Shown here piece by piece: positions 25,703 through 42,758 of a stretch of 64,000 nt of DNA. Position numbers and translations under genes: made by a program. The stretch's first letter is position 1. The number at the start of each line of letters is the position of its first letter. Origin of the DNA: Gluconacetobacter tumulisoli (lineage in GTDB: Bacteria > Pseudomonadota > Alphaproteobacteria > Acetobacterales > Acetobacteraceae); the NCBI RefSeq assembly GCF_014174155.1, contig NZ_JABEQM010000010.1, positions 62,001-126,000 of the forward strand, written 5' to 3'. The notes under the pieces were generated by a model that was given only the letters and a program-made list of their open reading frames with translations, had not been told where the DNA came from and made no database searches.

Positions 25703-26490
25703 CGGGCCTGATCGACTCACACTGCCATCTGGACCATTTCCCCGACGAGGCGATTCCCGACCTTCTGGAGCGGGCGAAGCAGGCTGGGGTCGAGGGAATG
25801 GTGACGATCGGCACCCGCCTGTCGCGGGCCGGCCAGCAGAAGGAACTGACCCGCTTCGACCGGCCGGACCTGCGGGTGTGGTGTACCGTGGGCACGCACC
25901 CCGATCATGTCGACGAATGCACGGTTTCCGATCCCGCCGACATCGTGGCCCTGGCCGACGACCCGCGCGTCGTGGGCATCGGGGAAAGCGGGCTGGATTA
26001 TTTCCATGGCGCGCCCGAGATCCGGCCGCTGCAGCAGGCGCGCTTTCGTGCTCATATCGCGGCTGCGCGGCGCATGGACCTGCCGCTGGTCATCCACGCC
26101 CGCGACGCCGATTCGGATGTCGCCGGGATCCTGCGCGACGAGATCGCGGCCCATGGCCCGTTCCGCTTCCTGCTGCACTGCTTCGCGTCGGGCCCCGAAT
26201 TGGCGCGGACGGGGCTGGAACTGGGGGGATATATCAGTTTTTCGGGGATCCTGACCTTTCCCCGGTCCGACGCCCTGCGCGACATCGCCCTGTCCATCCC
26301 CGAGGATCGCCTGCTGGTCGAGACGGATTCGCCCTACTTGGCCCCCGTGCCGCAGCGCGGCCGGAAGAACGAGCCCGGATTCGTCGCCCATACCGCGCTC
26401 AGGCTGGCCGAGTTGAGGGAGATGGCGCCCGAGCGGTTGGCGGAGGTGACGACCGCCAATTTCCATCGCCTGTTCAGCCGGGCGTCATAG
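25699..26490 (+). CDS. tatD: TatD-family metal-dependent hydrolase/DNase
   Basis: 263 residues. All metal-site motifs are present: DSHCHLDHF at the N terminus, GTHPDHVDE, GIGESGLDYF, VIHARDAD, LHCFASG and VETDSPYLAP. TatD proteins are TIM-barrel nucleases or deacylases acting on 3' ends of DNA/RNA. The ATG overlaps the metG stop; the next gene starts three bases after its stop. Confidence 0.93.
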   Translation: MTGLIDSHCHLDHFPDEAIPDLLERAKQAGVEGMVTIGTRLSRAGQQKELTRFDRPDLRVWCTVGTHPDHVDECTVSDPADIVALADDPRVVGIGESGLDYFHGAPEIRPLQQARFRAHIAAARRMDLPLVIHARDADSDVAGILRDEIAAHGPFRFLLHCFASGPELARTGLELGGYISFSGILTFPRSDALRDIALSIPEDRLLVETDSPYLAPVPQRGRKNEPGFVAHTALRLAELREMAPERLAEVTTANFHRLFSRAS

Positions 26491-26493
26491 ACC

Positions 26494-27285
26494 ATGGAAC
26501 TGATCGTCCTGGGATGCGGCGGATCTGCCGGGGTGCCGATGGTCGGCGGCCCGGGGGGGCGTGGCGACTGGGGCGCCTGCGATCCGGCGGAACCGCGCAA
26601 TCGCCGCACCCGCTCGTCGGTGCTGCTGCGCGGCGATGACGGGCGGGGGCTGCTGATCGATACCGGTCCTGACCTGCGGGACCAGTTGCTGGCGCAGGAA
26701 ATCGACCGGTTCGACGCCATCCTGTACACGCATTCCCATGCGGACCATATCTCGGGCCTCGACGAGGTGCGGGCCGTCAACCGCGTCATCGACCGGCCCC
26801 TGCCGGTCTACGGGACGCCGCCCGTCCTGTCCGACCTGGAAAACCGATTCAATTACGCCTTCCGTCCCTGGTCGCCGCCCGGGTTCTATCGTCCGGTAGT
26901 GGTGCCGGAAATCGTCCATGCCGGCGGAACCTACGAAATTGCCGGTCTGACGGTGTCCCTGTTCGAACAGATTCACGGGCGCACGCTCTCGCTGGGGGTA
27001 CGTTGTGGCTCGCTGGCCTATTCGACGGATGTGGTGGAACTGCCGGAGGACGCGTTCGCGATTCTGGAGGGCATCGAGACATGGCTGGTGGATTGCTTCC
27101 AGCGCTCGGCCACCCACAGCGCGCATGCCTGGCTGGAACGGGTGATGCATTGGCGCGCGCGGGTTCGTCCCCGGCGGGTGATCTTGACCCACATGGGCGG
27201 CGACATGGACTGGGCCTGGATGCAGGCCAACCTGCCCGATGGGGTCGAACCCGCCTTTGATGGAATGCGTCTGACATTCCGGTAA
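26494..27285 (+). CDS. MBL-fold metallo-hydrolase (PhnP-like phosphodiesterase)
   Basis: 263 residues of metallo-beta-lactamase fold. Metal ligands are the HSHADH block (His80, His82, Asp84, His85), DTGPDLR, DCFQ, and THMGGDMD near the end. The LGCGGSAGVPMVGG N terminus is typical of PhnP/Lactonase-like cyclic phosphodiesterases. The metG-tatD-MBL order is commonly conserved in alphaproteobacteria, suggesting a nucleic-acid or nucleotide housekeeping role rather than phosphonate metabolism. It is the last gene of the run; a small hairpin overlaps its stop. Confidence 0.88.
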   Translation: MELIVLGCGGSAGVPMVGGPGGRGDWGACDPAEPRNRRTRSSVLLRGDDGRGLLIDTGPDLRDQLLAQEIDRFDAILYTHSHADHISGLDEVRAVNRVIDRPLPVYGTPPVLSDLENRFNYAFRPWSPPGFYRPVVVPEIVHAGGTYEIAGLTVSLFEQIHGRTLSLGVRCGSLAYSTDVVELPEDAFAILEGIETWLVDCFQRSATHSAHAWLERVMHWRARVRPRRVILTHMGGDMDWAWMQANLPDGVEPAFDGMRLTFR

Positions 27286-27304
27286 TCCGGTTCTCCGGAT
27301 TTTG
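27284..27304 (+). terminator. Terminator hairpin at the end of the tmk-metG run
   Basis: Seven-base-pair stem AATCCGG/CCGGATT with a TTCT loop, directly at the stop codon of the MBL gene and running into a short T stretch (TTTTG). This is the best T-tailed intrinsic terminator candidate in the left half of the window. Confidence 0.55.
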
Positions 27305-27642
27305 AAAAAATCCGTTGAGGCTGGGGGAAGTGTTTGCGGCCGGCACGCGATTTAGGTTGAATCGCGACAGTCTGCGGCGATACCCTTGGACAAGACGACC
27401 CTGAGAGTCCGGTGCCCCGCCATTCCACGATACAGCAACGCTGTCGAATCGCGTGGGCCACGGACCACGGCGTGCCCGCCCGTCTGCAAAAGGGGATGAG
27501 CATTGAATGGTAGAAATACGGAAACGCTAGGCTGACGTTCCTCCCCGGACGGGGATCGGTCTCCGCCCGGGAATTTTGTCCATGATACATGGTCGCCCTG
27601 GGTTCATGACGGATCCAGGCGACGGATCGGAGACATCTGCCG
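27286..27642. other. Intergenic region upstream of prkA
   Basis: 357 bases with no conserved gene. Apart from the terminator at its left end I see a repeated GAATCGCG octamer (near 27359 and 27446), a CAGC-AAC-GCTG mini-hairpin, and no clear promoter. No ATG upstream of the prkA start carries a convincing ribosome binding site. The long leader would suit a stress-regulated promoter, but no sigma-54 or EcfG-type element matched. Confidence 0.4.
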
Positions 27643-29592
27643 ATGGCTTCTTCTGATATCAACGTGTTTTCCCTGGCCACCGCGATGCGGGACGGGCGTC
27701 GCGAAGTCGAGATGAGCCTGTCCGACTATCTCGAATCCTGCCGGACAGACCCGTCATGCTACGCGACGGCGGCCGAACGCATGCTCAAGGCAATCGGCGA
27801 GCCGCGCAGCGTCGATACCTCCCGCGATCCACGTCTGTCGCGCATTTTCATGAACCGCACGCTGCGGATCTATCCCGCGTTCTCCGATTTCTTCGGCATG
27901 GAAGAGACGATCGAGCAGATCGTCGGCTTCTTCCGTCACGCTGCCCAGGGGCTGGAGGAACGCAAGCAGATTCTCTATCTGCTCGGCCCCGTCGGCGGCG
28001 GGAAATCGTCGCTGGGCGAACGGCTGAAGGCCCTGATGGAAAAGGAGCCGATCTATGTCCTGAAGGCCGGGCGGCATATCAGTCCGGTATTCGAAAGCCC
28101 GCTGGGGCTGTTCGACCCGGACCGCATGGCGGATGCGCTGGAGGAGCGTTACGGCATTCCCCGCCGCCTGCTGACCGGGATCGCCAGCCCCTGGGCGCTG
28201 AAGCGGCTGGAGGAGTTCGATGGCGACCTGTCGCGCTTCACGGTGGTCAAGCTTCATCCTTCGCGCCTGCGGCAGATTGCGATCGCCAAGACCGAACCGG
28301 GCGACGACAACAACCAGGACGTGTCGGCCCTGGTGGGCAAGGTCGATATCCGGCAGCTGGAGCATTACAGCCAGAACGATTCCGATGCCTACAGCTTCTC
28401 GGGCGGGTTGAACCGCGCGAACCAGGGGCTGCTGGAATTCGTCGAGATGTTCAAGGCGCCGATCAAGATGCTGCATCCGCTGCTGACGGCGACGCAGGAA
28501 GGCAACTATGTCGGGACCGAGAATATCGGCGCCATCCCGTTTACCGGCGTGATCCTGGCCCATTCCAACGAGGCGGAGTGGCAGACCTTCCGCAACAATC
28601 GTACGAACGAAGCCTTCCTGGATCGCGTCTGCGTCATCAAGGTGCCGTACTGCCTGCGCGTGACCGAGGAGACCAAGATCTACGAGAAGCTGGTCCAGTC
28701 CTCCAGCCTGTCGGCAGCGCCCTGCGCGCCCAACACGCTGGAAATGCTGGCGCGCTTCGCCGTGCTGTCGCGGCTGAAGCCGCATCCGAACTCGACGCCG
28801 TTCGCCAAGATGCGGGTCTATGACGGCGAGAATATCCGCGAGACCGATCCCAAGGCGCGGACCATGCAGGAATATCGCGACGCCGCCGGCGTGGACGAGG
28901 GGATGGAGGGGATTTCCACCCGCTTTGCCTACAAGGTGCTGTCGGCGACCTTCAACCATGATTCGAACGAGATTTCGGCCGACCCCGTGCATCTGATGTA
29001 TGTGCTGGAACATGCGGTCCGGCGGGAACAGTTTCCACCGGAGGTCGAGGCCACATATCTGGCGACCCTGAAATCGGAACTGGCGGGACGCTATGCCGAA
29101 TATCTGGGGCACGAGATCCAGAAGGCCTATCTGGAGAGCTACAACGATTACGGCCAGAACCTGTTCGACCGGTATCTGGATTACGCCGACGCCTGGATCG
29201 AGGACCAGGATTTCAAGGATCCCGATACCGGCCAGATGCTGAACCGGGAATTGCTGAATGCCGAGCTGACCAAGATCGAGAAGCCGGCCGGCATCGCCAA
29301 TCCCAAGGATTTCCGCAACGAGGTCGTGAAATTCTCGCTGCGTGCCCGGGCCAGCAATGGCGGGAGGAACCCGTCCTGGACGTCGTACGAGAAGATCCGC
29401 GACGTCATCGAGAAACGGATGTTCAGCCAGGTGGAGGACCTGCTGCCGGTCATCAGTTTCGGGTCCAAGAAGGACGGCGAGACCGAACGCAAGCACGACG
29501 AGTTCGTGGAGCGGATGGTGTCGCGCGGATACACGGAACGACAGGTCCGCAGGCTCGTTGAATGGTACATGCGGGTGAAGCAGTCCGCCTGA
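27643..29592 (+). CDS. prkA: Serine protein kinase PrkA
   Basis: 649 residues, the usual PrkA length. An AAA domain carries the P-loop GPVGGGKSSLGE at about residues 113-124, followed by conserved segments EGNYVGTENIGAIPF (sensor area) and NEAEWQTFRNN. The C-terminal ~250 residues are the kinase-like domain (YLGHEIQKAYLESYNDYGQNLF). PrkA is a cytosolic stationary-phase and starvation-linked protein acting with YeaH and YcgB/SpoVR. The three genes lie here in that order. Confidence 0.95.
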   Translation: MASSDINVFSLATAMRDGRREVEMSLSDYLESCRTDPSCYATAAERMLKAIGEPRSVDTSRDPRLSRIFMNRTLRIYPAFSDFFGMEETIEQIVGFFRHAAQGLEERKQILYLLGPVGGGKSSLGERLKALMEKEPIYVLKAGRHISPVFESPLGLFDPDRMADALEERYGIPRRLLTGIASPWALKRLEEFDGDLSRFTVVKLHPSRLRQIAIAKTEPGDDNNQDVSALVGKVDIRQLEHYSQNDSDAYSFSGGLNRANQGLLEFVEMFKAPIKMLHPLLTATQEGNYVGTENIGAIPFTGVILAHSNEAEWQTFRNNRTNEAFLDRVCVIKVPYCLRVTEETKIYEKLVQSSSLSAAPCAPNTLEMLARFAVLSRLKPHPNSTPFAKMRVYDGENIRETDPKARTMQEYRDAAGVDEGMEGISTRFAYKVLSATFNHDSNEISADPVHLMYVLEHAVRREQFPPEVEATYLATLKSELAGRYAEYLGHEIQKAYLESYNDYGQNLFDRYLDYADAWIEDQDFKDPDTGQMLNRELLNAELTKIEKPAGIANPKDFRNEVVKFSLRARASNGGRNPSWTSYEKIRDVIEKRMFSQVEDLLPVISFGSKKDGETERKHDEFVERMVSRGYTERQVRRLVEWYMRVKQSA

Positions 29593-29612
29593 AACGGGAA
29601 TGGTGCCGCTCA

Positions 29613-30923
29613 GTGGATATTATCGACAGACGTCCCAATCCCCACGGGAAGAATATCGAGAACCGGCGCCGCGTGCTCGAACGGGCGCGGGGCGCGGTGC
29701 AGAAGGCTGTCCGCGATTCCGTGGCCCGTGGCAAGATCAGGGAAATCGGGCAGGGCAATGCCGTCTCCGTGCCCTCCGACGCGCTGCATGAACCGACCTT
29801 CCATCGCATCTTTACCGAGGGCGTGCGCGAGATCGTCCTGACCGGCAACCGCGAGTTTTCGCGCGGGGACCGGTTGCAGCGTCCGCCGGCCGGGGGCGGG
29901 TCGGGCAACGGCGGCGGGCCGGGGCAGGGAGGCGAGAAGGGGGGCGGTGAGGATTCATTCCGCTTCGTGCTTAGCCGGGATGAATTCCTGGACCTGTTCT
30001 TCGACGACCTGGAACTGCCGGACCTGGTCAAGCGTGAGATCGCGACGACCGAAAACAGCGTGCCCAGCCGCAGCGGGTTGAGCAACGACGGGGCGCCGTC
30101 GCATCTCGACCTGGGCCGGACGATGCGCCGGTCGGTCGCGCGGCGGATCGGGCTGGGCCGCCCGAAACCCGACGATCTGCGCGAAGTCGACGAACGGATC
30201 GCAGAGCTCGAAGCCCGGCGTCCTCTGGGCGCCGAAGAGATCGAGGAACTGGAACGCCAGCGCGAACGGCGGTCGACGATCCGCCAGCGCATGGCGCGCA
30301 TTCCATGGGTCGATCCGGTCGATTTGCGCTTTCGCCGCTATACCCTGACGCCGCAGCCGTCGACGCGCGCGGTCATGTTCTGCATCATGGATGTCTCGGG
30401 TTCGATGACCGAGCGCATGAAGGATCTGGCGAAGCAGTTCTTCCTGCTGCTGCACGTCTTTCTGGAACGGCGCTACAAGAAGGTCGACATCGTGTTCATC
30501 CGCCATGCCGAAAGCGCGGAGGAGGTGGACGAGGAGACGTTCTTCCACGATCCGCGCACCGGCGGCACCATCGTGTCGTCCGCACTGGAACTGATGCATG
30601 GCATCCAGCGCGAGCGCTATCCGGCGGGCAGCTGGAACATCTACGTTGCGCAGGCGTCGGATGGCGACAATGCATCGTCGGACACCCAGCGGACTGCGTC
30701 TCTGCTGCAGGAGCAGATCCTGCCGGCCGTCCAGTATTACGCCTATATCGAAATCACGGGATCCGGTGCGGTCATTCGCGGGGAAACCGATTTGTGGCGC
30801 AGCTATCGGACCATTGCCGAACAGAACGATCATCTTGCGATCCGCCAGGTCGGCGACCGCAAGGAGATCTTCCCCGTCTTCCGCGACCTGTTTTCCCGCC
30901 AGCATGACCATGCGGAGGCATGA
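29613..30923 (+). CDS. yeaH: YeaH/DUF444 family protein
   Basis: 436 residues from the GTG at 29613, chosen because the product then begins (M)DIIDRRPN, matching the start of E. coli YeaH; an ATG at 29562 would overlap prkA by 31 bases. A Gly-rich low-complexity stretch at ~88-112 is typical. The C-terminal half is a von Willebrand-like domain with the MIDAS motif DVSGSMTER (Asp260, Ser262, Ser264) and TGGTIVSSAL. It is part of the PrkA-YeaH-YcgB signalling triad. The stop overlaps spoVR. Confidence 0.92.
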   Translation: MDIIDRRPNPHGKNIENRRRVLERARGAVQKAVRDSVARGKIREIGQGNAVSVPSDALHEPTFHRIFTEGVREIVLTGNREFSRGDRLQRPPAGGGSGNGGGPGQGGEKGGGEDSFRFVLSRDEFLDLFFDDLELPDLVKREIATTENSVPSRSGLSNDGAPSHLDLGRTMRRSVARRIGLGRPKPDDLREVDERIAELEARRPLGAEEIEELERQRERRSTIRQRMARIPWVDPVDLRFRRYTLTPQPSTRAVMFCIMDVSGSMTERMKDLAKQFFLLLHVFLERRYKKVDIVFIRHAESAEEVDEETFFHDPRTGGTIVSSALELMHGIQRERYPAGSWNIYVAQASDGDNASSDTQRTASLLQEQILPAVQYYAYIEITGSGAVIRGETDLWRSYRTIAEQNDHLAIRQVGDRKEIFPVFRDLFSRQHDHAEA

Positions 30924-32479
30924 TGGACCAGATTGTTCCAGGTGGGGCGTCCGCGACGCCGGGCGGCCTTCTCTATTCCGGCAATGACTGGAATTTCCAG
31001 GTCATCCGGAATTGCTACGACGCGATCGAGGAGATCGCGGACAAGGAACTCGGCCTGGAGATCTATGCCAACCGGATCGAGATCATCACGTCGGAGCAGA
31101 TGCTCGACGTCTACACGTCGCACGGCATGCCGCTGGGCTACAAACACTGGTCGTTCGGCAAGCGCTTCATCGGGCATGAAAGCGCCTATCGACGCGGCCT
31201 GATGGGGCTGGCGTACGAGGTCGTCATCAATTCCGATCCCTGCATCAGTTACCTGATGGAGGAAAATTCCGCGACGATGCAGGCGCTGGTCATCGCGCAC
31301 GCAGCGTTCGGCCACAACCATTTCTTCCGCAACAACCGGCTGTTCCGGGAATGGACCGACCCGTCGCAGATCCTGGATTATCTGGAATTCGCCCGGGGCT
31401 TCATCGCGCGGTGCGAGGAACGGCATGGGCAGCGGGCCGTGGAACGCATCCTGGATGCCGCCCACGCCCTGCAGAACCAGGGGGTCCACCGTCATTCCGG
31501 TGCGCGCAAGATCGACCTCAAGGCCGAGCAGCAGCGGGCGCGCGAGCGCCGCGAATACGAAGACAGCATGTTCAACGATCTGTGGCGGACCTTGCCGTCC
31601 GACCTGCCGGGCGAGAAGGACGGCGTGCCCGATTCGACGACACGGCGGCGGCTGGGCCTACCCGAGGAAAACCTGCTCTATTTCCTGGAAAAGCATGCCC
31701 CCCGCCTTGCGCCGTGGGAGCGGGAGATCATTCGGATCGTCCGGATGGTCGCGCAATATTTCTACCCGCAGCCCCAGGTCAAGATGATGAACGAAGGCTG
31801 CGCGACCTGGGTCCATGCCTATATCATGCGCCGCCTGCATGAGCTGGGACGGATCGACGACGCCGCATATCTGGAAGTCATTCATTCCACATCGAACGTG
31901 ATCAACCAGCCCGGCTTCGAGGCGGGTGGCGGGCCGTCCTTCAATCCCTACGCACTCGGCTATGCGATGATGACCGACATCGCCCGGATGTGCGCTTCGC
32001 CCACCGAGGAGGATCGGCGCTGGTTCCCCGACATCGCCGGCAATGGCGATCCGGTCGGTACCCTGCGCCATGCCTGGGCCGAATATCGGGATGAGAGTTT
32101 CATCCAGCAATTCCTGTCGCCCGCGGTCATCCGGGATTTCCGCATGTTCAGGCTGCGCGACGACACCGCCCAGCCTTATCTGCTGGTGGATGCGATCCAT
32201 GATGAGGCCGGTTATCGCGATATCCGCCGCAGCGTGGCCCTGACCTACGACCCGGGAATGTTCTATACGGAAATCGAGATCGTCGATGTCGATCTGCTGG
32301 GGGATCGGACCCTGGTCCTGGAGCACCGCAGCCGGACAGGACAGATGCTACAGCCCGGCGACGCCCGGCAGACCCTGGATTATCTTGTAACATTGTGGGG
32401 TTACGGTGTTGTTTTAAAGGAAATCGATAGCCAGACCGGCGTAGTCGTCACCACACACACGGTCAATCCCGCCAGTTAA
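30920..32479 (+). CDS. spoVR: SpoVR family protein (YcgB)
   Basis: 519 residues, full length. SpoVR/YcgB shows the typical NEGCATWVHAYIM, NVINQPGFEAGGGPSFNPYALGYAMM and RDESFIQQFLSP segments. The exact biochemical role is unknown; it accompanies PrkA and YeaH in stationary phase. Two adjacent ATGs exist: the first (30920) overlaps the yeaH stop, and the second (30923) has better spacing from GGAGG at 30914-30918. A T-less but perfect hairpin lies 63 bases after the stop. Confidence 0.93.
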   Translation: MMDQIVPGGASATPGGLLYSGNDWNFQVIRNCYDAIEEIADKELGLEIYANRIEIITSEQMLDVYTSHGMPLGYKHWSFGKRFIGHESAYRRGLMGLAYEVVINSDPCISYLMEENSATMQALVIAHAAFGHNHFFRNNRLFREWTDPSQILDYLEFARGFIARCEERHGQRAVERILDAAHALQNQGVHRHSGARKIDLKAEQQRARERREYEDSMFNDLWRTLPSDLPGEKDGVPDSTTRRRLGLPEENLLYFLEKHAPRLAPWEREIIRIVRMVAQYFYPQPQVKMMNEGCATWVHAYIMRRLHELGRIDDAAYLEVIHSTSNVINQPGFEAGGGPSFNPYALGYAMMTDIARMCASPTEEDRRWFPDIAGNGDPVGTLRHAWAEYRDESFIQQFLSPAVIRDFRMFRLRDDTAQPYLLVDAIHDEAGYRDIRRSVALTYDPGMFYTEIEIVDVDLLGDRTLVLEHRSRTGQMLQPGDARQTLDYLVTLWGYGVVLKEIDSQTGVVVTTHTVNPAS

Positions 32480-32849
32480 CACGGATAATTTATCGTAAAT
32501 ACAAATATTTAGGCGAGTCGGCTGAGTCGTCCTCCGTCAGATCGGAGTTGCCGCGATTCGCGGCAACTCCGAATGAAAATTCTTTCAAAATCAATGAATA
32601 AAATCCTTATCTGGATAACGTATCCTGGGGCGTTTCACGTCGCGTCCCATGGCGCGCATCCGAAACGTACTGGCCCTTGGCGGGAAAAATTTGTATCGAA
32701 AGGATATTGAACCCGACCGGTGCCGGACGGGTCGACGTCCCGCCCGTGACGCTGCCGCGCTGGACGATTGACGGATTTGGCGGGGCGGCAGGGCGAAAGA
32801 TAAGGTAACGGGATGAATATACTGTCCTATTCTATGTCAGGACGGCTCC
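32480..32849. other. AT-rich, hairpin-rich intergenic region before the amine dehydrogenase operon
   Basis: 370 bases without a gene. The first ~150 bases are strikingly AT-rich for this genome and hold several inverted repeats: TAAATA-CAAA-TATTTA (32496-32511), the 14-bp hairpin at 32542-32572, and TTATC-TG-GATAA (32607-32618). The second half returns to high GC. The amine dehydrogenase promoter must be here; a TTGACG (32768-32773) and a TATACT (32818-32823) are seen but are not correctly spaced with each other. AGGA at 32839-32842 serves the next ATG. Confidence 0.5.
32542..32572 (+). terminator. Perfect 14-bp hairpin downstream of spoVR
   Basis: Stem TCGGAGTTGCCGCG pairs completely with CGCGGCAACTCCGA around an ATT loop. 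It is the longest perfect hairpin in the window. No T-run follows directly (GAAAATTC), so it may be a terminator of the prkA operon, a transcript-end stabiliser, or a protein-binding palindrome. Confidence 0.55.
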
Positions 32850-34058
32850 ATGGCGGCTGAACGACGTCGTGGCATGATCCGGGCTCTGGCCGCTCCCTTG
32901 ACGCTTCTCGGCGCCCTGTCCGTCCTTGCTTCGGGCCCGGCCCAGGCGGCGGACCCTATCCTGCAGACCGAAGAAAGCGACATCCTGAAGCTTCAGCCTG
33001 GTGGTCCGCATCGGATCCTGGTGGAAGACGGCGTGTACCGTCACAGCAAGGACGGACGCGTCTACGTGGTCGATACCGACAGCGGGAAGCTGCTGGGCAT
33101 GGTTCAGGCCGCCTATAACGCCAATGTCGCCGCCGATCCGGCCGGCCGGACGTTCTACGTCGCCGAAACGACCTGGGAGCGTGGAAATCGTGGCAAGCGG
33201 CATGACATGCTGGTGGCTTACGATCCCCTGACGCTCGAGCCGACGATGGACATCGACCTGCCGAGCCGCGCCCTGGTGACGCCCAAGAAGGCCGACCTGG
33301 GGGTCAGCGCTGATGGGCATTACGTCTATGTCTACGACACCAGTCCGACCAATTCGGTCCACGTCGTGGATACGGCGAAGAAGGCCGTGGTGCAGACCGT
33401 CGACGTCCCGGGCTGCGCGCTGGTCTATCCCTGGGGGCCTTCCGGCTTTTCATCGATCTGCGGCGACGGATCGCTGGCCAACGTCAGCCTCGACGCGTCG
33501 GGCAAGCCCAGCGTTACCCATTCCGCGCCGTTCTTCGTCCCCGACCGTGATCCCGTCTTCGAGCACAGCCCGAAAATCGCGGCCAGCGGCCATGTCTGGT
33601 TCGTGTCCTTCAGCGGTCTGGTCTATGACGCGGTCCTGGGGACCGACGTCCGGATCGGCAAGCCCTGGTCCCTCCAGGAAGCGGCGGGCCTGAAGCCGGC
33701 ATCCGATGCCCGCGCCCCCTTCGACGTTACCTGGCGGCCGGGCGGCTGGCAGCTGGCGGCGGTGCGTGCCCGCGATTCGCACCTGTTCGTCCTGATGCAC
33801 AACGGCACGTTCTGGACCCACAAGGAACCGGGGACGGAGGTATGGGAGGTCGACCTGAAGACCCGCAAGCTGGTGCGCCGCATCCGCCTGGCCGCCCCCA
33901 GCACATTGGTCGGGATCACCCAGGATGCGGCGTCGCGCGTCTTCGTGACGGACGAGGCCGGCGATCTGATCGTCCTCGATGGCACCACCGGCAAGACCGT
34001 GCGGCCGATCAGGAAACTTGGGGAATCGCTCATCTTCACGGTCGCACCGGGGGAATGA
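32850..34058 (+). CDS. Amine dehydrogenase heavy (alpha) chain, MauB/AauB type
   Basis: 402 residues, the usual size of the heavy chain of TTQ amine dehydrogenases. A signal peptide (from Met9, M-I-R-A-L-A...A-Q-A) sends it to the periplasm. The rest is a seven-bladed beta-propeller with recurring blades: VYVVDTDSGKLLGMV, FYVAETTWERGNRGKRHD, YVYVYDTSP-TNSVHVVD, VWEVDLKTRKLVRRI and VLDGTTGKTVRPI. The TWERGxRGxR segment is typical of MauB/AauB. It forms an alpha2beta2 complex with the light chain next door. The AAD versus MAD subtype cannot be fixed by eye. mauE, mauD, mauF and mauG are not adjacent. Confidence 0.88.
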   Translation: MAAERRRGMIRALAAPLTLLGALSVLASGPAQAADPILQTEESDILKLQPGGPHRILVEDGVYRHSKDGRVYVVDTDSGKLLGMVQAAYNANVAADPAGRTFYVAETTWERGNRGKRHDMLVAYDPLTLEPTMDIDLPSRALVTPKKADLGVSADGHYVYVYDTSPTNSVHVVDTAKKAVVQTVDVPGCALVYPWGPSGFSSICGDGSLANVSLDASGKPSVTHSAPFFVPDRDPVFEHSPKIAASGHVWFVSFSGLVYDAVLGTDVRIGKPWSLQEAAGLKPASDARAPFDVTWRPGGWQLAAVRARDSHLFVLMHNGTFWTHKEPGTEVWEVDLKTRKLVRRIRLAAPSTLVGITQDAASRVFVTDEAGDLIVLDGTTGKTVRPIRKLGESLIFTVAPGE

Positions 34059-34082
34059 TGGCGATGACACGAAACATGACCC

Positions 34083-34108
34083 GCCGCCCGTCCCGCGTGA
34101 CGGGCGGC
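34083..34108 (+). other. Strong GC hairpin between heavy- and light-chain genes
   Basis: A perfect 10-bp stem, GCCGCCCGTC with GACGGGCGGC, around a six-base loop, in the 84-bp gap between the heavy- and light-chain genes. It could slow or stabilise the operon mRNA and so set the subunit ratio; it is not followed by a T-run, so full termination is unlikely. Confidence 0.6.
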
Positions 34109-34142
34109 CACCGGATTTTCGCCCGCATGACGGAGGCATTCC

Positions 34143-34721
34143 ATGGCCAGTCCTGAAACCGGACGGGGCGCGACCGGCCGCCAGGACGGTTTTGATCGCG
34201 TAGCCGAACGGCTGACCCGCCGTCTGGCCGGGCGGTCGTCGCGTCGCAGTGCGCTGGCACGGCTGGGGGCGTGGGCGGCTGCGATCCCGGCTTTCCCGCT
34301 GCTGCCGGTCTGGCGGGGCGAGGCCCGCGCGGCTGCTCCCGTAACCCCGGCCCCGTCGCCCTTTGCCGCCAAGGCCCAGGTCAAGGACGACACCAAGTGC
34401 GATTACTGGCGGTATTGCGCCATTGACGGCAACCTGTGCACCACCTGCGGGGGCGGGGTTCACAGCTGCCCGCCGGGCACCCGTCCGTCGCCGACCTCGT
34501 GGATCGGCACATGCTTCAACCCGCAGGATCGCCGGTCTTACCTGATTGCCTATCGCGACTGCTGTGGGCAGGATTCCTGCAATGAAGAGAATTGCCTGGG
34601 TACCGACGGGGACCTGCCGACCTACCGTCCGCAAGCCAATAACGACATCATCTGGTGTTTCGGAACGGGCTCGCTTCTCTATAATTGTTCGACAGCCGTA
34701 ATCGTAGGAACCGCCGAATGA
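34143..34721 (+). CDS. Amine dehydrogenase light (beta) chain with TTQ cofactor residues
   Basis: 192 residues. The long Tat-like leader (R-S-S-R-R-S-A-L at 31-38) matches the unusual leader of MauA proteins. The mature part begins KCDYWRYCAIDGN. Twelve cysteines (86, 92, 99, 102, 109, 124, 140, 141, 146, 151, 172, 182) would form six disulfides as in the known light chains. By alignment from memory the two tryptophans crosslinked into TTQ are Trp120 (TSWIGTC) and Trp171 (IIWCFG), and the catalytic aspartates are Asp95 and Asp139 (YRDCCG). The start has GGAGG at 34132-34136. Its stop overlaps the first cytochrome gene. Confidence 0.92.
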   Translation: MASPETGRGATGRQDGFDRVAERLTRRLAGRSSRRSALARLGAWAAAIPAFPLLPVWRGEARAAAPVTPAPSPFAAKAQVKDDTKCDYWRYCAIDGNLCTTCGGGVHSCPPGTRPSPTSWIGTCFNPQDRRSYLIAYRDCCGQDSCNEENCLGTDGDLPTYRPQANNDIIWCFGTGSLLYNCSTAVIVGTAE

Positions 34722-35173
34722 AGAAGATCCTGACCCTGGCCCTGTGTCTTGCCGGGGCGACGCCCGCCTTTGCCGCGCCTGACGGAATGGCCCTCTATGG
34801 CGCCAATTGCGGCATCTGCCATCAGGGCGGCGGCGTCGGGGCGCCGGGACAATTCCCACCGCTGGCCAACCGCATCGACAAGATCGCGTCGACGCCGGAG
34901 GGCAAGAAATATGTGACCCAGGTGCTGATCAACGGCCTTGCCGGATCCATCCAGGTTGCCGGATCGACCTATGTCGGCTTCATGCCCAGCTTCAAGAGCC
35001 TGCCCGACGACCAGATCGCGGCGATCCTGACCTATCTGTCGTCTCTGGGCTCGACGAAGCCCGCCCCGGTCTTCACGGCGGCCGACCTTGCTGCCTCCCG
35101 CGCGACGCCGATGTCGTCGTCGGCCGTGGCCGCCGCCCGGAAGACCCTGAATGCGGCGCATCCGCTTCCCTAA
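34718..35173 (+). CDS. Mono-haem cytochrome c, amine dehydrogenase operon (first)
   Basis: 151 residues with a signal peptide (cleavage near Ala20) and one haem site, Cys31-x-x-Cys34-His35 (CGICH). A methionine in GFMPSFKSLPDDQI is the likely sixth ligand, as in class-I cytochromes of the alcohol-dehydrogenase type. The ATG overlaps the light-chain stop (ATGA), so it is translationally coupled. The natural reading is that it takes electrons from TTQ, replacing the copper protein amicyanin used in Paracoccus. It is far too small and has too few haems to be MauG. Confidence 0.85.
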   Translation: MKKILTLALCLAGATPAFAAPDGMALYGANCGICHQGGGVGAPGQFPPLANRIDKIASTPEGKKYVTQVLINGLAGSIQVAGSTYVGFMPSFKSLPDDQIAAILTYLSSLGSTKPAPVFTAADLAASRATPMSSSAVAAARKTLNAAHPLP

Positions 35174-35648
35174 GGCCGCGCATGTCGCGGGGCCGGCCGT
35201 CGCCCTTATAGTGGTGGCCGGTATCCTTGTCCTGCCGCGACAGGCACGCGCCCTGGACGGAACGCGCACGACCTATCTGGTCAAATGCGGGGGATGCCAT
35301 GGGATCGAGGGCCTGTCCGGACAGACCTATATTCCGGTCCTGCGCGACCGCGTCGGCAGCCTGACCTGCACGTCGGAAGGCCGATCCTATCTGGTCCGGG
35401 TGCCGGGTGTGTCGATGTCGCTGATCCGCGATGACGCGGTCATGGCGCGGGTGCTGAATTTCGTGGTGTTCGACCTCGGCGGTTCCAGCACGCCGAAGGG
35501 AACCCGTCCCTACACGGCGAAGGAAGTTCACGCCCTGCGCGGCCATCCGCTGCAGACCACCGACCTGCCGGGATTGCGCGCGGGTGTCTGGGGCCGCGCG
35601 GTGGCGGCCTGCGCCGCACAGGCCGGCCATGCGGCCGGCGCGTATTGA
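35151..35648 (+). CDS. Mono-haem cytochrome c, amine dehydrogenase operon (second)
   Basis: 165 residues with a membrane/signal segment at 12-28 and one haem site, Cys46-Cys49-His50 (CGGCH). A second cysteine pair is not present; a methionine in VPGVSMSLIRDD may be the sixth ligand. The start overlaps the previous gene by 23 bases, so they are co-transcribed. It is divergent from ordinary class-I cytochromes, and I do not recognise a named family. It could relay electrons to the terminal oxidase or take part in cofactor assembly; neither can be told from the sequence. Confidence 0.75.
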   Translation: MRRIRFPKAAHVAGPAVALIVVAGILVLPRQARALDGTRTTYLVKCGGCHGIEGLSGQTYIPVLRDRVGSLTCTSEGRSYLVRVPGVSMSLIRDDAVMARVLNFVVFDLGGSSTPKGTRPYTAKEVHALRGHPLQTTDLPGLRAGVWGRAVAACAAQAGHAAGAY

Positions 35649-35663
35649 CCGGATCGCCGCCCG

Positions 35664-36272
35664 TTACCGTGCCCGGAGGCGTGATGCCAGGTCGGCGATC
35701 GCGAGGCGGAAGGCCTCGTAGAAATCATCGTGCACGGCGATGCCTCCACCCGACAGGCGGATGAAACCTTCTACCATTCCATTTTGCAGCATGCCGTCGG
35801 AATGGGCCAGGATACCATCGCAATCCTCGGCCGCCCCCGATCCGACCGGCGCGTCGTGCGTGGTGCGCGGGCGCAGATCGTCCCCCCATGCGGCGCGGCG
35901 GTAGGCCCTGACCTTTTCGGGATACAGCCGTCCGTCCGTCGTGTAGCCCGCCAGGGGTTTGCCCTGCGCCATCATATAGCCGATTTCCACCGCCGTGCCG
36001 GGATCCATGTCGGCGGACCGGCGGAACGGGTCGATACAGAAGATGCCGCCGTCGCATCGATCCATCAGGTCGCGGTCGGCCCTGACGATCCTCAGCGTCG
36101 TTTCCAGGCCCTGGGGCATGGATTCAATCCCGACCTGGCCGTCGAACGGGGCCACGCCCACGACCCCGGCCGCGTCGCACAGCGCCCGCAGACGATCGAA
36201 GATCGTGATCGCGCCGGGACGAAACACCAGGTCGCCCGCCAGATAGACCGTTCCCAGCGTCGTCATGTCCAT
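35664..36272 (-). CDS. Nucleoside 2-deoxyribosyltransferase family protein
   Basis: 202 residues. The family pattern is clear: TVYLAGDLVFRPGA at the start, DRCDGGIFCIDPFR, and DPGTAVEIGYMMAQGKPLAGY with the catalytic glutamate of the NDT fold. It would transfer or hydrolyse 2'-deoxyribosyl groups of nucleosides or nucleotides (DNPH1/NDT-like salvage). Two ATGs (36272, 36266) both fit; the GAGGG before the first favours it or the second about equally. Convergent with the second cytochrome gene. Confidence 0.82.
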   Translation of the reverse strand: MDMTTLGTVYLAGDLVFRPGAITIFDRLRALCDAAGVVGVAPFDGQVGIESMPQGLETTLRIVRADRDLMDRCDGGIFCIDPFRRSADMDPGTAVEIGYMMAQGKPLAGYTTDGRLYPEKVRAYRRAAWGDDLRPRTTHDAPVGSGAAEDCDGILAHSDGMLQNGMVEGFIRLSGGGIAVHDDFYEAFRLAIADLASRLRAR

Positions 36273-36430
36273 TCACCCTCTGTCGCAGAAGGGACCGGAC
36301 CGCCATGGGCGGCCCCGGGTCCAGGTTTTTCGATGGCGCGCGTCTTTTTCTTGCCACCATCCGATTCGCATCTTATGTGGAAGCGCCAACGGTCGGGTAC
36401 CCGAGGCACAGGGACCCCTGCAATGGTTGA

Positions 36431-37948
<1,518 letters not shown>

Positions 37949-37992
37949 ACGGAATCGCTGACCGGGGACCGCCGCCGGACCATTGGAACAAG

Positions 37993-38009
37993 GTCCCGGG
38001 CCCCGGGAC
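37993..38009 (+). terminator. Hairpin between guaB and rsmB-like gene
   Basis: Perfect 7-bp stem GTCCCGG/CCGGGAC with a GCC loop, 24 bases before the next ATG. No T-run. It may be a weak terminator or affect translation of the downstream gene. Confidence 0.35.
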
Positions 38010-38032
38010 GCTGGACGACAGACAGGACGATC

Positions 38033-39325
38033 ATGACCCCCAGTGCGCGGCTTGCCGCCGCCATCGATCTGCTTACGGCGATGGAGGCTACGCCCCGTCG
38101 CCCGGCGGACGCCGTTGCCAATGCGTTCTTCCGCGAACGCCGTTATATCGGCGGGGGCGACCGCCGGGCCGTTTCCACCCGGGTCTGGTCCATTCTGCGC
38201 CAGTGGCGACATATCGAATGGTGGCTGGACCGTGCAGGCACCTCCGCCACGCCGCGAAACCGGATCGTGGCGATGCTGGCCCTGTCTCCCCGGCCGGGGG
38301 AGGCCCCGCAGGACCTGTTTTCCGGCGACCGCTACGCGCCGTCCGTCCTGTCGCCGGCCGAGCGCGACCTGGCCGCGCGGTTGCGGGGGCATGAGCTGAT
38401 CCATCCCGACATGCCGCGCGCCGTCGCGCTGGAAATCCCCGACTGGCTGCTGCCACGGTTGGAGACGGTGTTCGGCGACGATCTGGTGCCGGAAATCGAG
38501 GCCCTGTCGGGCGAGGCGACGCTGGATCTGCGCGTCAACCTGCTGAAGACCACGCGGGACGAGGCGCGGCAGTCGCTGGCCGCCGACGGCATCATCGCCG
38601 AGGACACAATTCTGTCCCCATGGGGGCTGCGTGTTCCGGGACGCCAGCCCGTGACCGCGACTGCGGCGTTCAAGGCCGGCCTGGTGGAAATCCAGGACGA
38701 AGGCAGCCAGGTGGTGGTGGCGGCGGCCGATGCCCGGCCGGGCATGCGGGTGGTGGATTACTGCGCGGGCGCCGCGGGCAAGACGCTGGGCATGGCCATG
38801 ACCATGCAGAATCGGGGCCATATCGTCGCCTGCGACGTGTCCGAGGCCCGGCTGGACGGCGCGGTGCGCAGGCTGCGGCGGGCGGACGTGCATAATGTCG
38901 AACGCCACCTGCTGAAGCCCGGCGACCGCTGGGCCAAGCGGCGTGCGGGCAGCTTCGACCGGGTGCTGGTTGACGCGCCATGCACCGGGACGGGCACCTG
39001 GCGCAGGAACCCGGACGCCCGCCTGCGTTTGACAGAGCAGGATCTGGCCGAACTGATGGTCAAGCAGGCCGAGATCCTCGATACCGCGTCGACGCTGGTC
39101 CGGCCGGGCGGCCGGCTGGTGTATGCGACCTGTTCGATCCTGCGGGAGGAAAATCAGGATCGCATCGAAACCTTCCTGCGTACGTCGCCGCAATTCCGTC
39201 GTGCGGAACCCGACGCGCAATGCGGCCTGCCGGCGGGGCTGGCGCAGCAGGGCATGATCGCGCTGTCGCCCCTGCGCGACCGGACCGACGGGTTCTTCGC
39301 CGCGATCCTGGAACGGACGGCCTGA
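38033..39325 (+). CDS. rsmB: RsmB/NOP2-family RNA cytosine-5 methyltransferase
   Basis: 430 residues. An N-terminal NusB-like helical part (~1-140) precedes the Rossmann methyltransferase domain. SAM-site motif I is VVDYCAGAAGKTLGMA. The two cysteines of the m5C mechanism are in DAPCTGTGTWRRNPD (motif IV) and YATCSILREEN (motif VI, catalytic). It methylates a cytosine in 16S rRNA or a related RNA. Assignment to RsmB rather than another NOP2 paralogue is by overall length and layout. Confidence 0.87.
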   Translation: MTPSARLAAAIDLLTAMEATPRRPADAVANAFFRERRYIGGGDRRAVSTRVWSILRQWRHIEWWLDRAGTSATPRNRIVAMLALSPRPGEAPQDLFSGDRYAPSVLSPAERDLAARLRGHELIHPDMPRAVALEIPDWLLPRLETVFGDDLVPEIEALSGEATLDLRVNLLKTTRDEARQSLAADGIIAEDTILSPWGLRVPGRQPVTATAAFKAGLVEIQDEGSQVVVAAADARPGMRVVDYCAGAAGKTLGMAMTMQNRGHIVACDVSEARLDGAVRRLRRADVHNVERHLLKPGDRWAKRRAGSFDRVLVDAPCTGTGTWRRNPDARLRLTEQDLAELMVKQAEILDTASTLVRPGGRLVYATCSILREENQDRIETFLRTSPQFRRAEPDAQCGLPAGLAQQGMIALSPLRDRTDGFFAAILERTA

Positions 39326-39447
39326 CGGTCGCCATCTTCCGCATTTTTTCTGGTTAACGGACTGGTTTCGCCCGATTATCGGTTTTGCCATCGTCATAGT
39401 ATGATGGGATTGCCCGAGCTGTCGGGCCAACAGTCCGGGAAACGGGA

Positions 39448-41262
39448 ATGCAGGATAATCTGGCCATCGGGATCTTGTGCGTGCTGGGGGGCGGTATCGG
39501 CGCCCAGTGGGTGGCCTGGCGCTTTCGCCTGCCGGCCATCGTCCTGCTGTTCGGGTTGGGCCTGGTCTACGGCCCCGGTCTTGGCCTTCTGCATCCCTCG
39601 GCGGCGATTGGCCGCTATTTTCACCCGATCGTCTCGCTCGCCGTTGCGTTCATCGTGTTCGAGGGCGGGTTGGCGCTGGATTTCCGGCAATGGCGCGCCT
39701 CGGGCGAGGGCGTGCTGCGCCTGACGGCGGTGGCTCTGCCAATCAACTGGGTCCTGGGCGCCCTGGCCGCGCATTTCGTCGGCCATCTGCACTGGGGGGC
39801 GTCGTGGCTGTTCGGTGCGATCATCGTCGTGACCGGCCCCACGGTCGTGCTGCCCCTGCTGCGCCATACCAAGCTGCGGCCGCGCGTGGCGGCGTTCCTG
39901 CGCTGGGAAGCGATCCTGAATGATCCCGTGGGGGCCATCCTGGCGACTCTGGTGCTGGAAATCCTGGTGATCCAGGGCAATCGCCATTCCGGCATGTTCA
40001 TGGTGGAGATCGTACCCCACCTGCTGTTCAGCACCATGATGGCCATCGGATTCGGGGTGTTCCCCGCGATTCTGGTCCGCTTCCTGTCGGCGCGGGATCT
40101 GGTTCCGGAAATCCTGCGCATTCCCATCATCCTGACCCTGGCGATGAGCGTCTTTTCGGTCTGCAACTTCTTCATGGAAGGTGCCGGGCTGATGGCGGCG
40201 ACCGTCTTCGGCATGGCGCTGACGAACATGCACGTGACCGGCATGTCCGAATTGCGCCGTATCAAGGAGTCGCTGGGGGTCCTTGTCGTGTCGTGCCTGT
40301 TCGTCATGCTGACCGCCGATCTGCATCGCGATGTGCTGGAACGCCTGTCCCTGCCCATCGTTGCGATGACGCTGACGGTGCTGTTCGTAGTGCGGCCCCT
40401 CGGCATCCTGCTGTCGACCATCCGGTCGGACCTGTCATGGCAGGAACGCCTGTTCGTGGGCTGGATCGCACCGCGCGGCATCGTCGCCGCCGCCGTCGCC
40501 GGCGTCGCCGGCCTGCAACTGGGGGAGGCGGGCTACCCCAGCGCAGACCTGGTGATGCCGGGGGTGTTCGCCCTCATCGCGACCACCATGATCCTGCATG
40601 GGTTTTCGCTTCGTCCCGTGGCGCGGATCCTGCGTCTGACCCTGTCGGACGAACCTGCCCTGGCGATCGTGGGCGCCAGCGCATGGTCGACCGATCTGGC
40701 CGGCGCGCTGCATCGCCTGGGCTGTCCGGTCGTGCTGGTCGATACCTATGCCGGCGCCCTGGCGCCGGCGGCCCGCGCCGGCATCCCGACCCTGAAGGCC
40801 GAACTGCTGTCCGACGAAGGTCTGGAAAGCCTGGAGGAACGGCCGGCGGACTATCTGATCGCCGCGACGCCGGACGCGATCTATAACGGACTGGTCTGCG
40901 CGCGCCTCGCCCCCGATTTCGGGCGGCAGCGCGTGTTCCAGGTCAGTCCGGGGGTGGCACGCCTGGATCTCTATCGGGGGCTCAGCCGCGACTCGCGCGG
41001 CAAGGTCCTGGGGGACCCGGCCTGGAATTTCACCCTGATCGACACCCTGTTCGAACGTGGATGGCGGTTCAGGAGCCTGCCGTTTGGCAGTGACGTACCC
41101 CGCGATCCGGCCGGTACGGACGGAAACCGGCTGAACATCATGACGATCCGCAGGGGAACGGCGATGTGGATCCGATCGGTCGAGGACGAGGCCCCGGTCG
41201 AACCGGTATCGGGCGATATCATCATTGCGATGACGCCACCCGAGGGTGCAATCGCCTCCTGA
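39448..41262 (+). CDS. Cation:proton antiporter (NhaP2/CPA1 type) with RCK-like NAD-binding domain
   Basis: 604 residues. About 12 membrane segments up to ~390 hold VTGPTVVLPLLRHTKL and the WEAILNDPVGAI motif of CPA1. A RCK/TrkA-N-like Rossmann domain follows (LAIVGASAWSTDLAGALHRLG), then a C-terminal soluble part. It probably exchanges K+ or Na+ for protons under cytosolic nucleotide control. It differs from the first antiporter, which has a cyclic-nucleotide-like tail. Convergent with the L,D-transpeptidase gene. Confidence 0.87.
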   Translation: MQDNLAIGILCVLGGGIGAQWVAWRFRLPAIVLLFGLGLVYGPGLGLLHPSAAIGRYFHPIVSLAVAFIVFEGGLALDFRQWRASGEGVLRLTAVALPINWVLGALAAHFVGHLHWGASWLFGAIIVVTGPTVVLPLLRHTKLRPRVAAFLRWEAILNDPVGAILATLVLEILVIQGNRHSGMFMVEIVPHLLFSTMMAIGFGVFPAILVRFLSARDLVPEILRIPIILTLAMSVFSVCNFFMEGAGLMAATVFGMALTNMHVTGMSELRRIKESLGVLVVSCLFVMLTADLHRDVLERLSLPIVAMTLTVLFVVRPLGILLSTIRSDLSWQERLFVGWIAPRGIVAAAVAGVAGLQLGEAGYPSADLVMPGVFALIATTMILHGFSLRPVARILRLTLSDEPALAIVGASAWSTDLAGALHRLGCPVVLVDTYAGALAPAARAGIPTLKAELLSDEGLESLEERPADYLIAATPDAIYNGLVCARLAPDFGRQRVFQVSPGVARLDLYRGLSRDSRGKVLGDPAWNFTLIDTLFERGWRFRSLPFGSDVPRDPAGTDGNRLNIMTIRRGTAMWIRSVEDEAPVEPVSGDIIIAMTPPEGAIAS

Positions 41263-41296
41263 ACAGGGCCGGCCAGACCCGCCGCGATCCGGCCGG

Positions 41297-41809
41297 TCAG
41301 GCCGGCGGCAGGACCTCGATTTCCGTCAGTCCGGCGGCCAGTATGCGGCGCAGGTCGGATTCGCGCAGGGCGATGCATCCTTCGGTCGGGCGGCCATCCG
41401 GCGATTGCAGATGCAGGAAAATGGCCGATCCGCGCCCCGGGACCGGCGGGGCGTCATTATATCCGAGTTCTATCACGATATTGTAAACGTTATCGTCCCG
41501 CCACATCTTCTCATGCCGGGCAGGGTGGGGCAGGGTGATGCGCCGGTTGTAGTCGGCGTGGGCCGGGTCGTCGCACCACCCGTCGGCCGGCGCCAGGGGT
41601 TCCAACGGCAGGGCGCAGACCGGCGCCGCGACACGGTCGGCGCGGTACAGGACCCGCCGCAACGGCAGAATTCCGGTCGGTGTGGCGTGATCGCCTTCCT
41701 CCTTGATGGACCGGACCCCAGCGGCCCCGACGATCGCCGGGATTTTCTGATCCATGCAATGCAGTTGTGCATCGGGGCCGGTATTCGATCTTAAAACTGC
41801 GCGTATCAT
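41297..41809 (-). CDS. L,D-transpeptidase-family (YkuD-like) protein
   Basis: 170 residues starting at the ATG at 41809, which has GGAGG five bases upstream; the frame stays open upstream but would overlap the divergent regulator. The YkuD-type catalytic block is present as FLHLQSPDGRPTEGCIAL (His133, Cys145), a variant with T-E-G-C in place of the common S-H-G-C, as in the small COG3786-like subgroup. No signal peptide is evident. It could act on peptidoglycan or a related peptide substrate. Confidence 0.78.
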   Translation of the reverse strand: MIRAVLRSNTGPDAQLHCMDQKIPAIVGAAGVRSIKEEGDHATPTGILPLRRVLYRADRVAAPVCALPLEPLAPADGWCDDPAHADYNRRITLPHPARHEKMWRDDNVYNIVIELGYNDAPPVPGRGSAIFLHLQSPDGRPTEGCIALRESDLRRILAAGLTEIEVLPPA

Positions 41810-41987
41810 GGAGGCCTCCAAACGGGTCGCCTTTTGCTGGGATTCGGGCCTAGACTGGACGACACCAGTATAGCCGTGGGAAGAGGTCGCAGGCGGACGG
41901 GTCCGGATGCTGCCGTTTCCGCTTCGGGAATGATATAGGATACCCGGCCCTGCGGATGGGGTTGCGGTCAAAAATAAAGAGGGTTCG

Positions 41988-42704
41988 ATGGCAGGTGCGC
42001 GTCCCATTCTGATAGTGGATGACGATCAGACGTTACGTCATATGCTCGTCGAACAATTGCAGCTCGAAGGGGAGTTCCTGGCGATCGAGGCGGAATCGGT
42101 CGCCGATGCCTGGGACAAGCTGAATGCGCCGGGCGCGCGCTTCGATGCCATCATCCTGGACGTGACGCTGCCCGACGGTGATGGCCGCGATTTCTGCGCC
42201 GACCTGCGACGCCAGGGCAAGCGCATCCCCATTATCATCCTGACGGGTTCGGATGACGAAACCGACGTGGTGCGGGGCCTGGATGCCGGGGCCAACGATT
42301 ATGTCGCCAAGCCCTTCCGCATCGCCGAGCTCCTGGCCCGCCTGCGCGCGCAGATGCGGATCTTCGAGAACAGCGAGGATGCGGTCTTTTCCATCGGGCC
42401 CTATGTCTTCCGGCCGTCGGCGAAGCTGCTGCAGGAACCCACGCGCAACCGCCGCATCCGGCTGACGGAAAAGGAAGCCGCGATCCTGAAATTCCTGTAC
42501 CGGGCCGGCACGCGGCCTGTGCCGCGGCAGGTCCTGCTGAACGAGGTCTGGGGCTACAACGCCGCCGTGACCACCCATACGCTGGAAACCCACATCTATC
42601 GCCTGCGGCAGAAGATCGAGCCCGATCCGACGAATGCATCTCTGCTGGTGACCGAGGGCGGGGGGTATCGCCTGGACCCGGAAGGCGGATTGCGCGCCGG
42701 TTGA
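41988..42704 (+). CDS. OmpR/PhoB-type response regulator, orphan
   Basis: 238 residues. Receiver domain with acidic triad Asp11-Asp12-Asp13, phosphoacceptor Asp58 (IILDVTLPDGDG), Thr86 and Lys108 (YVAKPF). The C-terminal winged-helix DNA-binding domain has LTEKEAAILKFLYRAG and VTTHTLETHIYRLRQKIEPDP. No histidine kinase gene is adjacent: xthA lies downstream in the opposite direction. It is probably a two-component partner whose kinase is elsewhere. Confidence 0.92.
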   Translation: MAGARPILIVDDDQTLRHMLVEQLQLEGEFLAIEAESVADAWDKLNAPGARFDAIILDVTLPDGDGRDFCADLRRQGKRIPIIILTGSDDETDVVRGLDAGANDYVAKPFRIAELLARLRAQMRIFENSEDAVFSIGPYVFRPSAKLLQEPTRNRRIRLTEKEAAILKFLYRAGTRPVPRQVLLNEVWGYNAAVTTHTLETHIYRLRQKIEPDPTNASLLVTEGGGYRLDPEGGLRAG

Positions 42705-42758
42705 GGCAGGCTGCGTTCGGATCCGGGACCCGAACGCCTTTTGGCCCCCTGGTTGCGA

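Follow-up and report, generated by a model that had tools for sequence, protein, structure and literature searches.

We analysed a 64,000-nucleotide stretch of the Gluconacetobacter tumulisoli genome (hereafter the window), which carries a four-gene operon for a predicted amine dehydrogenase with a tryptophan tryptophylquinone (TTQ) cofactor: a heavy chain (B), a light chain (A) and two small cytochromes, c1 and c2. The reading that we favour, on balance, is that this dehydrogenase is matured in trans and independently of MauG, and that c2 is the leading candidate for the part otherwise played by MauG, the di-haem enzyme from which TTQ biosynthesis is known. If the enzymes of the branch described here are active, a non-MauG route to TTQ must exist, since 14 genomes with a TTQ dehydrogenase have no match to PF03150, the MauG superfamily, and our comparison singles out one small, expressible protein, c2, as the candidate replacement. 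This second cytochrome, passed over in the first-pass annotation of this DNA, is the most informative gene of the operon.

As part of the same explanation, the operon probably encodes a periplasmic TTQ-type amine dehydrogenase of an aau-like branch, judging from homology and gene order. The heavy, or large, subunit (window positions 32850..34058, forward strand; 402 aa with a likely signal peptide) matches PF06433 with 159.7 bits (cut-off 21), and the light, or small, subunit, which bears the TTQ tryptophans (34143..34721, forward strand; 192 aa, 12 Cys), matches PF02975 with 171.5 bits (cut-off 25). The nearest solved structures of the two chains are methylamine and aromatic amine dehydrogenases; the best PDB relatives of the heavy chain are an aromatic amine dehydrogenase (2h3x, 150.6 bits) and a methylamine dehydrogenase (1mg2, 138.6 bits), and the light chain matches 3c75_L with an E value of 6e-53. 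The light chain indeed has the two tryptophans, two aspartates and 12 cysteines reported in the first pass. Trp120, Trp171, Asp95 and Asp139 align with residues of methylamine dehydrogenase light chains, the former two of which we take to be the TTQ tryptophans and the latter two the essential aspartates. Both tryptophans and Asp139 are invariant in the 156 rows of our light-chain tree (155 different, the window's own included), and position 95 is Asp in 150 rows, His in five and Ser in one. We read the light-chain leader as resembling a twin-arginine translocation (Tat) signal.

The five copies with His in place of Asp95 (L063, L071, L074, L077 and L082) lie on a long branch of the tree; in several Gluconacetobacter-type genomes such a copy belongs to the third TTQ cluster, and one more belongs to a cluster of genome G037 (B-E-D-A-c1-c2-TonB, where E and D stand for mauE and mauD). 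An apparent loss of the sixth disulfide may be a mere shift in the alignment, and we do not claim it.

The first-pass annotation described a four-gene operon without mauE, mauD, mauF and mauG, and in both respects it was borne out: four open reading frames on one strand encode the heavy chain, the light chain and two single-haem cytochromes, and homologues of mauE, mauD, mauF and mauG were looked for in the 18 kb around the operon (window positions 25000-43000) and none was found. The light-chain gene overlaps that of c1 (34718..35173, forward strand) by 4 nt, and c1 overlaps c2 (35151..35648, forward strand) by 23 nt. B and A, said to be directly adjacent, are neighbours, but 84 nt lie between them.

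The window operon resembles, and differs from, each of two known arrangements. The aau-type cluster on a plasmid of Pseudomonas aeruginosa RW109 (L017; B-E-D-A-cytochrome-cytochrome) has two mono-haem cytochromes like c1 and c2, in the same order after A, and has neither mauF nor mauG beside it; E and D stand between B and A there. The window operon shares the order B, A and then two cytochromes but has no E and D between B and A, both of which are found at a second locus in its genome. The heavy and light chains of the Paracoccus denitrificans mau cluster (L015) are homologous to those of the window operon and share their TTQ residues, but there F, E, D, amicyanin, J and G are linked and c1 and c2 are missing. 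In contrast, no mauF, mauG or amicyanin is linked to the window operon, and its chains score below the cut-offs of TIGR02658 (168.5 versus 454.45 bits) and, by a narrow margin, TIGR02659 (196.1 versus 196.85 bits). The absence of mauG from aau clusters was, to our knowledge, known earlier.

We read the neighbourhoods of 170 light-chain copies, a number that includes duplicates, as some genomes entered it twice, once as genome (G) loci and once as named contigs. Of at least 580 relatives the best 80 make up the named loci, and this sample therefore leans towards the window's kin. mauF or mauG stands beside five of the 170 copies (three times in Paracoccus, and in Methylobacterium and Indioceanicola). 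These five, which are the clusters taken for reading from the 15 plasmid records with MauF described below, form one clade on the light-chain tree. The search for MauF covered the surroundings of the clusters and the plasmid collection, rather than the whole of the window's own genome, and found none beside the window operon.

The absence of MauG relatives extends to entire genomes. Among 36 Acetobacteraceae genomes with a TTQ dehydrogenase, two have no PF03150 match, G178 (89% complete) and G219 (100%). A further 13 of 23 genomes or records with a TTQ cluster have no PF03150 match; one of these 13 is represented by a plasmid record alone, so that 12 genomes remain, and 14 in total. G585 and G453 each consist of one contig and are 100% complete, as is G654, all without a match. 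c2 stands beside a light chain in all 14 genomes. Because of these 14 genomes, TTQ formation in this branch would be independent of MauG, and the branch as a whole seems to mature its TTQ-type light chain without it. The 'different route' proposed in the first-pass annotation is favoured for the MauG step, although as a property of the whole branch rather than of the window operon in particular.

c2 tends to stand where mauF and mauG are missing. A c2 gene on the light-chain strand, no more than 6.5 kb away, accompanies 160 of the 165 copies without mauF or mauG, but none of the five copies with them; each of the five remaining copies (L095, L103, L108, L185 and L188) shares its genome with a c2-bearing cluster. 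Similarly, among 31 light-chain records in the plasmid collection, 15 have c2 (in all 15 within ∼1.5 kb of the light chain), 15 have MauF and none has both. The remaining record, with neither, is a distant match on a Thermomicrobium roseum plasmid (L208); in one region of hypothetical genes on that plasmid, four distant matches resemble the light chain and others resemble MauE and MauD.

In profile searches of whole genomes, c2 tracks the light chain. Within the family, c2 scores more than 120 bits in 36 of 36 genomes with a TTQ dehydrogenase and in one of 361 others (G145, which is 66% complete, has c2 at the very start of a contig and has no light-chain match); 24 further genomes have weaker matches (36 to 48 bits) of the kind that other cytochromes would give. 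In an even sample of 398 genomes from the phylum, an intact light chain is present in 11, each of which has a c2 match of more than 128 bits; the other 387 contain two matches to the c2 profile of 49 to 50 bits and no other at an E value of 1e-10. Weak light-chain signals occur in two of these 387, a 25-bit partial match in G659 and a fragment in G122. All 11 genomes of this draw thus have c2, and none has mauF or mauG beside the light chain.

We compared how often c1 and c2 change state on the light-chain tree, setting aside ten edge or partial rows for c2 (and for E and D), which left 146; such counts are blind to the direction of change, so that 'loss' below is our interpretation. c1 changes 12 times, as expected of exchangeable electron carriers, but c2 changes three times, as expected of maturation genes. 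c2 is missing from the rows of the mau clade and from two groups of extra copies.

The two cytochromes also differ as proteins. c1 is a mono-haem class I cytochrome c with a CGICH motif (PF00034, 41.4 bits) and a conserved methionine, Met81, present in 73 of 74 distinct relatives, and among the references it is most similar to the first of the two RW109 cytochromes. c1 is likely an electron acceptor: the dehydrogenase would oxidise a primary amine and pass the electrons to a c-type cytochrome, most likely c1. c2, also mono-haem, has a CGGCH motif and a shortened axial-Met loop, and belongs to a family found beside MauG-less TTQ light chains; it is similar to the second of the RW109 cytochromes and to a gene product annotated as 'hypothetical protein' in the Novosphingobium pNL2 cluster. 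The window c2 has no Pfam match at an E value of 0.01. Unlike MauG, c2 has a single CxxCH; among 42 members of its family, 40 match Cytochrom_C (best E value 3e-6) and none matches PF03150 at an E value of 0.1.

The axial methionine expected of a class I electron carrier has no conserved column among the c2 sequences, of which 145 distinct ones were compared. Just ahead of the conserved Pro stands Leu in 72, Val in 71 and Ala in two. Met occurs in none of the 145 at column 69 and in four at column 73, the counterpart of the c1 methionine in the hhalign alignment of the two profiles, and that alignment has a 16-column gap at the Met loop. Thermus cytochrome c552 (1c52) matches the c2 profile on either side of this loop with 84.7 bits, but its residues 49-70, which presumably include its axial Met69, correspond to about four profile positions in c2. 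A Foldseek search with the AlphaFold model of c2, a confident one (pLDDT 90.8), gave no match at an E value of 0.001; the best was again Thermus c552 (probability 1.00, E value 0.03, TM scores 0.57/0.64). Without a fixed sixth ligand, a cytochrome is better suited to chemistry with peroxide or oxygen than to passing on electrons.

Together, these observations suggest that MauG's step may be carried out by c2: this small cytochrome has no conserved sixth haem ligand and has stayed next to the light chain in the absence of MauG. We hold more tentatively, and on less than even terms, the stronger proposal that c2 would represent a new type of TTQ maturation protein, mono-haem with an open sixth site, which by itself or together with a His/Met cytochrome (c1, for example) does the work of both MauG haem domains; MauG would in that case be an exception limited to one clade, and the c2 route the common one. 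Searches of the open-licence literature showed no sign of a c2-like TTQ maturation protein, which is no proof of absence from print.

Several observations weigh against assigning this role to c2. The presence of TTQ in the window light chain is itself a prediction. The window c2 has a methionine in column 74 that is a possible ligand; across the 145 sequences this column is occupied by Met (45), His (25), Phe (22) or another residue, and the Met or His found there in 70 of them could still be a ligand. c2 also evolves faster than the other subunits (nonsynonymous to synonymous ratio, pN/pS, of 0.23-0.50 against 11 orthologues). The c2 profile (A2) was built partly from the genomes searched, which aids in finding c2 in those genomes but not in avoiding others. 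Of the 14 genomes with no PF03150 match, nine have unknown completeness, several being metagenome-assembled genomes (MAGs), and G178 is 89% complete; conversely, 34 of the 36 Acetobacteraceae genomes with a TTQ dehydrogenase, the window's own included, hold PF03150 proteins, one of which could act. Since the copies with mauF or mauG form one clade, the exchange of c2 and MauG may be a single event. Finally, four of the five mauF/G clusters read have amicyanin linked to them, and c2 could therefore be an electron acceptor that amicyanin replaced.

This last point leads to the strongest alternative, to which we give real weight although we consider it the less probable: c2 is a dedicated electron acceptor of the MauG-less TTQ dehydrogenases, amicyanin takes its place in the mau branch, and the MauG-like step is carried out by another enzyme encoded elsewhere. 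Consistent with this, c2 is missing where amicyanin stands beside mauA in the same four clusters, c2 is class I-like and closest to Thermus c552, and the window operon has kept c2 while losing E and D. However, the conserved Met of c1 has no conserved counterpart in c2, an uncommon state for an electron carrier, and Indioceanicola, with mauF and a peroxidase-annotated gene at the mauG place but no listed amicyanin, still has no c2, although another c-type cytochrome gene upstream there tempers this case.

We consider it unlikely that a general di-haem peroxidase stands in for MauG in trans. Such an enzyme would have to be one of the three PF03150 proteins in the window's genome (on contigs C4, C5 and C8), none of which resembles a MauG orthologue, and the idea draws on their presence, on the occurrence of some PF03150 protein in nearly all the Acetobacteraceae genomes counted above and on the 31% identity of the C5 protein to Paracoccus MauG over 387 columns. 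We rejected the C4 and C8 proteins as MauG, as each has three CxxCH motifs, and also, with less certainty, the C5 protein, which has two haems but a phosphoesterase neighbour and Phe aligned with a Tyr that we take to be the MauG haem ligand; the 14 genomes without PF03150 likewise argue against this alternative. At L012:4423-6033 (reverse strand), a two-haem MauG-family protein adjoins a phosphoesterase gene and has Phe at the place of the MauG Tyr ligand. A similar arrangement is that of BthA, which one report describes as a MauG-like protein paired with a putative phosphatase (PMC6405878).

The second element of our favoured reading, maturation in trans, concerns mauE and mauD. The genome (3.96 Mb, 99.9% complete) encodes the light chain and the heavy chain twice each. 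The second pair, on contig C5 (L003), stands in a cluster with a TonB receptor, the heavy chain, a MauD-like protein with the motif CPIS (D'), the light chain, a c2-like protein, MauE (82.4 bits with the Pfam model) and MauD with the motif CPVC; MauD was recognised by its similarity to Paracoccus, Indioceanicola, Novosphingobium and Pseudomonas proteins rather than by a genome-wide family search. The cluster has the same subunits and c2 as the window operon (identity of 45% for the heavy chain, 61% for the light chain and 44% over 132 columns for c2), but differs in having MauE, the CPVC MauD and the extra CPIS protein, and in having no c1. Thus, one option raised in the first-pass annotation, that the maturation genes lie elsewhere, is correct for mauE and mauD, both of which are beside the second pair on another contig. 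The same annotation had named complete mauFEDG or aauED genes elsewhere in the genome as what would refute its claim, and for E and D such genes are indeed present.

MauE accompanies the light chain throughout the family. An intact light chain is present in 36 of 397 Acetobacteraceae genomes, all 36 of which have MauE with at least 50.8 bits; G122, a small acetic acid bacterial genome, has a light-chain remnant with four in-frame stops (L110). We therefore rejected the idea that the operon matures without any MauE or MauD in the cell, as MauE is found in the window's own genome and in every searched Acetobacteraceae genome with an intact light chain. In all 17 single-copy genomes E and D adjoin A (the neighbourhood of every reported copy was read). 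In the window's genus, 13 of 14 genomes with a light chain, the window's own included, have one B-A-c1-c2 operon and one B-D-A-c2-E-D cluster each, and the fourteenth, G388 (87% complete, 1310 contigs), has a B-E-D-A-c1-c2 cluster only. In another genus, three genomes carry, besides a B-E-D-A-c1-c2 cluster, two copies each without E and D; in one of them, G324, the complete cluster is cut by a contig end, with its E gene on another contig. G009 has B-D-A-c2 plus B-E-D-A-c1-c2.

The same holds beyond the family. The copies without E and D at L185 and L188 each share their genome with a complete B-E-D-A-c2 cluster, and Novosphingobium nitrogenifigens (L189) has B-D-A-c1-c2 without E, with a complete B-E-D-A-c2 cluster elsewhere. 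One MAG, G791 (L138), has no MauE match in its genome; its cluster is on a 5.6-kb contig, and its relatives keep E-D ∼4 kb upstream of B, that is, beyond a contig of this length. In the MAG clusters L132-L135, L137 and L186, E-D stands 4 to 5 kb upstream of B-A-c2 rather than between B and A.

On the light-chain tree, the state without E and D, found in 21 of the 146 scored rows, accounts for three changes, placed in Gluconacetobacter, in Komagataeibacter-type and Acetobacter syzygii copies, and in HR40 with a relative; each of the three groups has a complete cluster in the same genome. The window copy is in a clade of 12 rows without E and D (support 100/99), which lies inside a supported group of 45 rows mostly from clusters with E and D. 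By comparison and by the tree, the window operon most likely derives from a B-E-D-A-c1-c2 ancestor that would have lost mauE and mauD once a second complete cluster was present; the simplest account is that this second cluster made the two genes redundant, hence their loss. As co-occurrence suggests, the disulfides of the window light chain would most likely be made in trans by MauE and MauD of the second cluster. Genomes with two or three TTQ dehydrogenases and a single mauE/mauD set are a natural experiment.

The loss of E and D and the presence of a complete paralogous cluster might also be taken to mean that the window operon is a decaying or repurposed duplicate, its helper genes gone and its light chain never converted to TTQ, but this is the least probable of the alternatives, since the operon occurs in 13 genomes (its own included), the TTQ residues and 12 Cys are kept in all 12 light chains compared (again including its own), and pN/pS against 11 orthologues (light chain 0.13-0.21, heavy chain 0.17-0.33, c1 0.09-0.26, and c2 as given above) indicates that the operon is maintained. 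Gluconacetobacter diazotrophicus PA1 5 also has a window-type operon (L114).

Two features of the second type of cluster recur in relatives. A second MauD paralogue with CPxS instead of CPxC (L003:9913-10510, reverse strand, and relatives in acetic acid bacteria) stands beside many Acetobacteraceae TTQ clusters. In B-D-A-c2-E-D clusters, the upstream D has CPxS in 14 of 14 copies and the downstream D has CPxC in all 14, with one genome counted twice (L051 and L187); some CPxS motifs were labelled CPxG or CPxQ in our motif table, an earlier CP having been matched. Similarly, genes for TonB-dependent receptors adjoin many TTQ clusters (L003:11851-14448, reverse strand, and many related loci), with a receptor match in front of the B-D-A-c2-E-D cluster in 11 of 13 genomes of the genus, and these neighbours may hint at uptake of a particular substrate.

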